Made by a program: the position numbers and the translations under genes | Notes under the pieces: model-generated | Database searches by the model: none | What the model was told of the DNA's origin: nothing | The model's input: only the letters and a program-made list of their open reading frames with translations | Origin: Bacteroidota bacterium | GTDB lineage: Bacteria > Bacteroidota > Bacteroidia > Chitinophagales > Chitinophagaceae | Direction: 5' to 3' | NCBI GenBank assembly: GCA_018267705.1 | Contig: JAFDXX010000013.1 | Location: 1-64,000, forward strand | DNA length: 64,000 nt | Shown: in pieces, positions 9,919 to 11,498 of the stretch | How positions within the stretch are numbered: the first letter of the stretch is position 1 | Layout of the letters: every line of letters starts with the position of its first letter

Positions 9919-10341
9919 TTATTTGTTGCTGCAGTTTTTACAAATTCCGCTCATTACAACATCTGTTCTTGTTTGTTTAAACCCTGCAGGTAAATTTATG
10001 GCAGGTATTGCAATATGTTCTAAACAATATGTAAGATCACAAACATCGCAAATAAAATGAGCATGATTATCATTATGATGACCTTGCGAGCAATTGTCTT
10101 TACATAAAGCGTATAGAACAGAATTATCTGTTGTGGGAATGGTATGAATAATTCCTTTTTCAACAAAAACCTGTAAGGTTCTGTAAATGGTTACTCTATC
10201 AAATTGTTCGGAAGATTTTTTTTCTATATCGGCATGTGCTAAAGCTCCGTTACTTTTTTGAAACAGTTCTAAAATAGCTGTTCTGCTTCCGGTAACACTT
10301 AGTTGATTTTTTTTTAATATATCATTAGTATCACTTTTCAT
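9919..10341 (-). CDS. Fur-family metalloregulator (possibly Zur-like)
   Basis: The 140-aa protein has the Fur winged helix: 'RTAILELFQKSNGALAHADIE' and the recognition helix 'FDRVTIYRTLQVFVEKG' (residues 47-63). The dimerisation domain has a structural zinc site formed by C98-x-x-C101 and C134-x-x-C137. A His-rich loop (H88, H89, H93, H95) contributes sensor ligands. Whether it senses zinc, iron or peroxide is not clear; the neighbours (a MerC-domain protein and the copper chaperone Sco1) and the palindrome at 11072-11088 favour a metal such as zinc. It lies between sco1 (30-base gap) and an SDR gene (9-base gap), all read leftwards. Confidence 0.88.
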   Translation of the reverse strand: MKSDTNDILKKNQLSVTGSRTAILELFQKSNGALAHADIEKKSSEQFDRVTIYRTLQVFVEKGIIHTIPTTDNSVLYALCKDNCSQGHHNDNHAHFICDVCDLTYCLEHIAIPAINLPAGFKQTRTDVVMSGICKNCSNK

Positions 10342-10371: not shown

Positions 10372-10998
10372 CTATTGTTCTTGTTTTTCTTTTAATAATC
10401 CTGCTATATCTTTTTTTAATTTTTCTATTTCATTATTTTTTAACCCATCATATACACCGCCACGCACATTTCCATTTTTATCTACCAATGCAAAAAATTG
10501 CGTATGCATAAAATCATCATCAATGTTGGCAAGTGCACGCTTGGGGTCATCAATACCATAACTATTTCTGGCAATATTGTATAAACTATCTTTTCTTCCT
10601 GTTAAGAATACCCATTTTTTTGTATCAACTTTTAAAGAATCGGCATAATGTTTTATAACTGAAACAGAATCTGTACCGGGGTTGCAGGTGCTAGAAACAA
10701 TTAAAAAATTGGGTTCGTTTTTAAAGGCTTCATAAATTAATTTCATGTTGTTATTCATTTTGGGGCAAATACCTTTGCAGGTTGTAAAAAAATAATTTAC
10801 AACACATACTTTGCCTTGCATGTTAGTATTTGTAAATACATTTCCATCTTGATTTAAAAATGAAAAACTTTCTATTCTGCTTCTTTTGGGCAAAGAACTT
10901 TTATTAAAAAAATCGGTTCCTTTAAAAATAAAAACTTGAAACACAATAGTTAAAACAATAAAGAACAATAAATAATACAATATCTTTTTCTTATTCAT
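10372..10998 (-). CDS. SCO1/SenC family copper chaperone
   Basis: Sco proteins deliver copper to the CuA site of cytochrome c oxidase or act as thiol-redox factors outside the cytoplasm. The 208-aa protein has an N-terminal membrane anchor (about residues 7-25) and a thioredoxin-like domain with the copper-binding pair C74-x-x-x-C78 in 'FFTTCKGICPKM' and the distal His ligand H165 in 'DDFMHTQFF'. All three ligands are present. It is the first gene of the leftward run sco1-fur-epimerase and is divergent from the MerC-domain gene. Cytochrome oxidase genes are not in this window. Confidence 0.88.
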   Translation of the reverse strand: MNKKKILYYLLFFIVLTIVFQVFIFKGTDFFNKSSLPKRSRIESFSFLNQDGNVFTNTNMQGKVCVVNYFFTTCKGICPKMNNNMKLIYEAFKNEPNFLIVSSTCNPGTDSVSVIKHYADSLKVDTKKWVFLTGRKDSLYNIARNSYGIDDPKRALANIDDDFMHTQFFALVDKNGNVRGGVYDGLKNNEIEKLKKDIAGLLKEKQEQ

Positions 10999-11070: not shown

Positions 11071-11101
11071 TTTGCAACATTGTTGCAATATGTTATATTT
11101 G
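11071..11101 (+). promoter_or_regulatory. merC promoter with an embedded 7-3-7 palindromic operator
   Basis: TTTG at 11071-11074 and TATATTTG at 11094-11101 are perfect -33 and -7 boxes separated by exactly 19 bases. Overlapping the -33 box and spacer is the perfect inverted repeat TTGCAAC-ATT-GTTGCAA (11072-11088). Its size and symmetry are those of a Fur-family box, and a Fur-family gene lies 750 bases away. Binding there would block RNA polymerase. The -7 box ends 4 bases before the merC ATG, so the transcript should have almost no leader. Confidence 0.65.
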
Positions 11102-11105
11102 CAAA

Positions 11106-11498
11106 ATGTTTCGTAAAATTAATTGGGATGCTTTTGGTATTGCTGCTTCGTTGGCGTGTGCCATACATTGTGCCATACTACCTTTGGTGCTAACCAGTTT
11201 GCCATTGTTTGGTGTAGAAATAATTGATAATGTTTCTTTTGAATATGGAATGATTGCGTTAGCGTTTTTGGTGGGTGCATATTCTTTGTATCATGGATGG
11301 AAAAAACATCATCATAGTGTTATTCCGTTAATTATTTTTTCTGTTGGAATACTTTTATTGGTGGCCAAACAAATTTGGCATAATCTTCAATTGGTGTTTT
11401 TAATTCCTGCTGTTGTATTTATTGTGTATGCTCATTTATTAAATTATAAATCTTGCAGAAAACACAATCATGCACATAAAGATGATTGTAACCATTAG
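11106..11498 (+). CDS. MerC-domain membrane protein
   Basis: The 130-aa protein has about four membrane segments and the MerC pattern: a Cys/His cluster in the first helix (C18, H21, C22 in 'SLACAIHCAILPLVL') and a His-rich end (His-Lys-His-His near residue 65 and 'KHNHAHKDDCNH' at the C-terminus). MerC was described as a mercury uptake protein in mer operons, but no merA, merP or merR is here. The surrounding Fur-type regulator, its candidate operator and Sco1 suggest transport or handling of a nutrient metal. Substrate unproven. Confidence 0.75.
   Translation: MFRKINWDAFGIAASLACAIHCAILPLVLTSLPLFGVEIIDNVSFEYGMIALAFLVGAYSLYHGWKKHHHSVIPLIIFSVGILLLVAKQIWHNLQLVFLIPAVVFIVYAHLLNYKSCRKHNHAHKDDCNH

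Follow-up and report, generated by a model that had tools for sequence, protein, structure and literature searches.

The 64,000-nucleotide stretch analysed here (the window; positions 1 to 64,000 of contig JAFDXX010000013.1 from a Chitinophagaceae bacterium of the phylum Bacteroidota) carries merC, a gene for a 130-amino-acid MerC-domain membrane protein (11106–11498, forward strand), which faces a divergent sco1-fur operon across a palindromic candidate operator. MerC matches PF03203 (E-value 2.3e-21; 76.8 bits, cut-off 27.6), and its proposed role is the uptake or handling of zinc. The first gene of the operon, sco1 (10372–10998, reverse strand), encodes a SCO1/SenC protein exceeding the Pfam cut-off of PF02630, and fur (9919–10341, reverse strand) encodes a putative Zur-like regulator (PF01475; 43.5 bits, cut-off 23.1), with no other Fur-family protein in the genome. 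The palindrome, TTGCAAC-ATT-GTTGCAA, occupies 11072–11088 (no strand assigned), with the sequence and position reported in a preliminary description of this DNA, and is proposed here as the site of a dimer of this regulator.

Bacteroidota housekeeping promoters have the consensus TTTG, about 19 bases and TAnnTTTG, a pattern to which the merC promoter conforms: a −33 box TTTG (11071–11074, forward strand), overlapping the first half-site of the palindrome, is followed by a 19-base spacer (11075–11093) and a −7 box TATATTTG (11094–11101, forward strand). This TTTG-N19-TATATTTG promoter, with the palindrome lying over its −33 box and spacer, is present as first described. A dimer bound to the palindrome would lie over the −33 box and the greater part of the spacer and would be expected to keep RNA polymerase off the promoter. 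The −7 box ends only four bases before the merC start codon (window 11094–11106), a distance shared by genus mates, and the merC transcript may have no leader or almost none. On the opposite side, the palindrome lies about 73 nucleotides (nt) upstream of sco1, and autoregulation of sco1-fur through it is possible; among sco1-fur operons not located beside merC, the site was present in two genomes (G112, G006) and absent in three (G057, G078, G143).

TTGCAACNNNGTTGCAA occurs as a single exact copy in the whole 2.63 Mb genome, where base composition predicts about 0.008 exact copies. Perfect 7-3-7 palindromes as such are unremarkable in the window (15 observed, 13.4 ± 3.7 expected from first-order Markov sequences); their rarity was therefore dropped as stand-alone evidence, and the case for an operator rests on conservation in relatives.

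Conservation of the operator and its tie to the Fur-family gene

The exact palindrome was found in 38 of 147 family genomes, and the reversed control pattern in none. As the reversed pattern contains CG dinucleotides, this control is weak, and weight was placed on position, shuffled sequences and control loci. The merC loci were chosen by matches to the MerC proteins of the family, not by the motif, and each upstream region was scored, over 150 nt, for its best-matching palindrome by the number of matches among the 14 specified bases. Across 92 distinct merC orthologues (at least 50% identity), 88 have a site scoring at least 12/14, located 14–45 nt 5' of the start codon, and TAnnTTTG follows it in 81 of these 88 promoters, mostly 5–6 nt downstream. 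Shuffled sequences (20 per region) yielded best scores of 9–11, reaching 12 once. In the operator alignment, the three central bases and the two last positions vary, the remaining ones being nearly fixed. A single-protein MerC search of a second, partially overlapping genome collection returned 11 loci, all with sites of 12–14/14. Failure of the palindrome to persist in relatives that share the gene pair had been named at the outset as the finding that would speak against an operator; in this comparison, the operator is conserved. One subset of the family (L153, L155, L168 and relatives) carries a fixed operator variant, TTGCAACNNNGTTGCTT, in its merC promoters, and in G041 a tricorn-protease-like gene (L086:6081–9389) has an exact operator lying across its start.

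Outside the family, the exact site is rare (19 of 381 genomes), with several copies lying within coding sequence; we therefore dropped it as a phylum-wide marker and read the phylum scan as yielding targets, not rates. A single-sequence MerC search outside the family misses most MerC proteins. At two loci from the same phylum but outside the class (L100 and L101, in G325 and G510), the exact operator lies between fur and merC. By gene order, the fur-operator-merC arrangement extends well beyond Chitinophagaceae.

The distribution of the operator follows that of the regulator. merC was detected in 98 of the 147 family genomes, 93 of which also have a fur homologue (co-occurrence P = 1.6e-13). 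The operator was kept in 96 of 98 merC promoters where the genome has a fur homologue. Four merC genomes with no Fur-family protein at all could be tested (G044, G075, G090 and G093), and none of them has it (scores 7–8; Fisher P = 3.5e-6); both P values were calculated without regard to relatedness among genomes. These four genomes are scattered on the MerC tree and were united in 0 of 200 bootstrap trees; the well supported branches of the tree are compatible with a single event. By comparison, the operator is absent where the regulator is missing. Each of the 38 genomes with the exact site has a fur homologue (P = 5e-6). Linkage of merC and fur is not required for the site, since merC keeps it in the genus mate G147, where fur lies on a separate contig, and in G143, where merC is unlinked and sco1-fur has no site. 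The same site also stands beside diverged fur genes: between fur and merC in G062, G315 and G510, and in two copies each between fur and a flavin adenine dinucleotide (FAD) oxidoreductase gene in G031 and between fur and an alkaline phosphatase-ABC-FtsX cluster in G036.

The palindrome could instead be bound by another regulator, with fur merely a frequent neighbour, given that binding by the fur product is a prediction from sequence comparison and that FAD-oxidoreductase genes with no fur beside them also have this site upstream. We regard this as improbable in view of the absence of the site from all four testable genomes without a Fur-family protein, its retention when fur is unlinked, the fur homologue in all 38 exact-site genomes and the presence of the site beside several diverged fur paralogues. 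The comparison strongly supports the operator and its tie to the regulator, and the earlier suggestion of a metalloregulator operator for merC is strongly supported by its conservation and by its absence from fur-less merC genomes. In one of the latter (G044, locus L124), the place of the operator upstream of merC holds an intrinsic-terminator-like hairpin, AAAGGTTGTCAAC-TTTTAAA-GGTTGACAACCTTTTTT. In G123, the product of a fur paralogue that adjoins an exact operator (L090:11894–12325) has neither the Cys nor the His ligands of the sensory site, and this regulator may have degenerated or may work independently of metal.

The regulator and the genes under the operator

In 88 distinct orthologous regulators, residues H66, C80, H89, H93, H95, C98, C101 and C106 are invariant, and C134 and C137 are found in 85 of the 85 proteins long enough to reach them, C98-C101-C134-C137 being consistent with a structural Cys4 zinc site. 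Zur sensory sites have mixed N/S/O ligands that include a Cys and a hinge His; that of E. coli Zur consists of one His and one Cys from the DNA-binding domain, the hinge His77 and a Glu (PMC6103462). H66 and C80 of the regulator align with H77 and C88 of E. coli Zur. E. coli Zur is also the best PDB match of the regulator, no Nur structure being among its matches, and Zur is its best NCBIfam match, above Fur among the family models (3.9e-11 versus 1.5e-6). As in known Zur systems (PMC6103462), this would be a Fur-family dimer regulator with a Cys4 structural site, a putative sensory Cys and control of COG0523/ZigA and TonB-receptor genes. It differs from them in its Cys106 at the Glu111 position, in its operator, TTGCAAC-N3-GTTGCAA, and in that MerC is the target found most regularly; the Zur review PMC6103462 mentions no Bacteroidota and does not list MerC among the targets.

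ZigA-type COG0523 genes are associated with zinc limitation (PMC2770081), and a zinc regulon would therefore be expected to have the operator before them, a prediction that we checked in relatives. A site scoring at least 12/14 was present on the upstream side within 1.5 kb in 16 of 18 testable ZigA-like loci; the control loci had none (0 of 16), and shuffles had one in 0.5% of cases. Several of the ZigA-like loci have a merC or fur paralogue between the site and zigA. The same operator stands before zinc-metallochaperone genes.

A second site in the genome itself (13/14, contig C3:100491) lies upstream of genes for a small secreted His/Cys-rich protein and a TonB receptor, which resembles both heme receptors (E-value 1.3e-41) and ZnuD (E-value 1.2e-34), each match being under the cut-off. 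The site is kept in the genus mates G052 and G147, and similar pairs with exact sites occur in other genomes. Zur-type control of zinc-acquisition genes was seen as operator association only, at the ZigA loci and at TonB receptors. Short secreted His/Cys-rich proteins, often ending in R[AG]PP, precede TonB receptors under the operator at L201:2694–5492 (contig C3 of the genome itself), L202, L203, L087, L094 and L107; the one in the genome itself starts with a non-ATG codon, and neither Pfam nor NCBIfam matches were obtained for two in L256 and the others scanned.

With a single Fur-family protein in the genome and a TonB receptor resembling heme receptors, the regulator might be a general ferric uptake regulator responding to iron. 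We consider this very improbable, given the Zur-type Cys ligand, the ranking of Zur over Fur among the family models and the presence of ZigA under the operator in relatives. In the preliminary description, the palindrome had been called a candidate Fur/Zur operator; the sensory ligands and the operator before ZigA and the ZnuD-like TonB receptor favour the Zur-like half of that label.

Other genes recur beside the operator. A thioredoxin-reductase-like FAD oxidoreductase (Pyr_redox_2) is a recurrent target (L083, L084, L089, L091, L095, L245, L254 and L257); at some loci it shares an operon with merC or is transcribed divergently from fur. In three genomes (G036, G123 and G131), the operator adjoins genes for an ABC ATPase, an FtsX-type permease and a third protein at the zrgE position, resembling Vibrio zrgABCDE, in which zrgC-zrgB-zrgE belong to the Zur regulon (PMC9817125). 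These clusters differ from the Vibrio system in that an alkaline phosphatase gene has joined two of the three, and they lie outside the window locus. DUF3299 was dropped as a certain member of the cluster, being matched below cut-off in two genomes (E-values 0.0012 and 0.024) and undetected in the third.

MerC function and the effector metal

MerC residues C18, H21, C22, E46, H69 and H110 are invariant in 93 orthologues, and distant MerC paralogues keep D8, C18, C22, P26, H110 and N113. The name of PF03203 and the conserved pair C18/C22 could suggest that MerC takes up or handles mercury and that the site serves mercury control. The genome, however, has no mercuric reductase (MerA), its best match to MerA scoring 558.7 bits as dihydrolipoyl dehydrogenase against 308.1 as MerA, and we rejected mercury on this ground; merC is, moreover, common in the family and shares its operator with ZigA loci, which makes a mercury role extremely unlikely. 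The previous proposal that this MerC handles a nutrient metal, not mercury, is strongly supported. Compared with the MerC of mer operons, it has the same Pfam domain, above cut-off, and a Cys pair in the first helix region, and differs in the absence of mer genes, its chromosomal position beside sco1-fur, the C-x3-C spacing with a His between and the Zur-type operator.

A Zur-type sensor would have merC repressed at zinc sufficiency and expressed in scarcity, placing MerC in zinc uptake or handling. In the mechanism that we propose, the Zur-like product of fur, in the divergent sco1-fur operon, has the palindrome as its operator. When zinc is sufficient, the metal-loaded dimer on TTGCAAC-N3-GTTGCAA would cover the −33 box and spacer of merC and block transcription; when zinc is short, the regulator would leave the operator and merC would be expressed. 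MerC, as a membrane protein with conserved Cys and His residues, would help to bring in or handle zinc, acting together with the ZnuD-like TonB receptor under the second operator copy. We infer that zinc is the effector, that the regulator represses when loaded with metal and that MerC serves in import; MerC would act in zinc scarcity, probably in uptake. Taken as a whole, a Zur-like operator with zinc-loaded repression of merC and a MerC acting in zinc scarcity is the reading that we consider likely.

Several observations weigh against it. G041 has fur, yet its merC site is half degenerate (11/14). The position of E. coli Zur Glu111 is held by Cys106 in the regulator, five residues past the last Cys of the first CxxC by manual count, and the NCBIfam Zur model PRK11639 is matched far below a cut-off set close to the E. 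coli protein (42.9 versus 167 bits); on account of this score, we suggest that the regulator works like Zur and do not claim formal membership. The genome itself has no ZigA, and no znuABC, ZIP or ribosomal-protein paralogue is among the operator sites examined. The half-sites and spacing are identical to those of the Streptomyces Nur box, tTGCaa-N5-ttGCAA (PMC3919588), and in G315 an NRAMP-type gene, assigned by eye, follows the fur paralogue next to the exact site.

The last two points favour nickel and manganese, the main rival effectors: the operator-regulator pair would be right, the regulator would be Nur- or Mur-like and MerC would handle that metal. Against both stand the invariant Cys80 at the Zur sensory position, the operator before the zinc-tied ZigA group and the ZnuD-like receptor in the genome itself, and against nickel in particular the absence of a Nur structure from the PDB matches of the regulator. 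Streptomyces Nur is a nickel sensor whose targets include sodF; neither a target of this kind nor any nickel gene is among the operator sites examined, which does not settle the effector. We hold either metal to be unlikely, though less so than the other alternatives, and retain zinc as the preferred effector.

More broadly, MerC-domain proteins of Bacteroidota may form a class of membrane proteins that import or handle zinc. They would be regular targets of a Zur-type regulon that has a distinct operator, TTGCAAC-N3-GTTGCAA, and a regulator with more sulphur in its sensory site, and the MerC of mer operons would be an offshoot of a nutrient-zinc family; we see the chances for and against this wider view as evenly balanced. 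Neither a Bacteroidota zinc operator nor a Zur-MerC link was found in the open-access literature, and that no Zur box from Bacteroidota is published there does not prove novelty. If our reading is true, it would provide an operator for reading zinc regulons in a phylum that matters in the gut, in soil and in water, and a testable role for the chromosomal MerC proteins that current annotation assigns to mercury resistance; counts of heavy-metal resistance that rest on this annotation would need correction.
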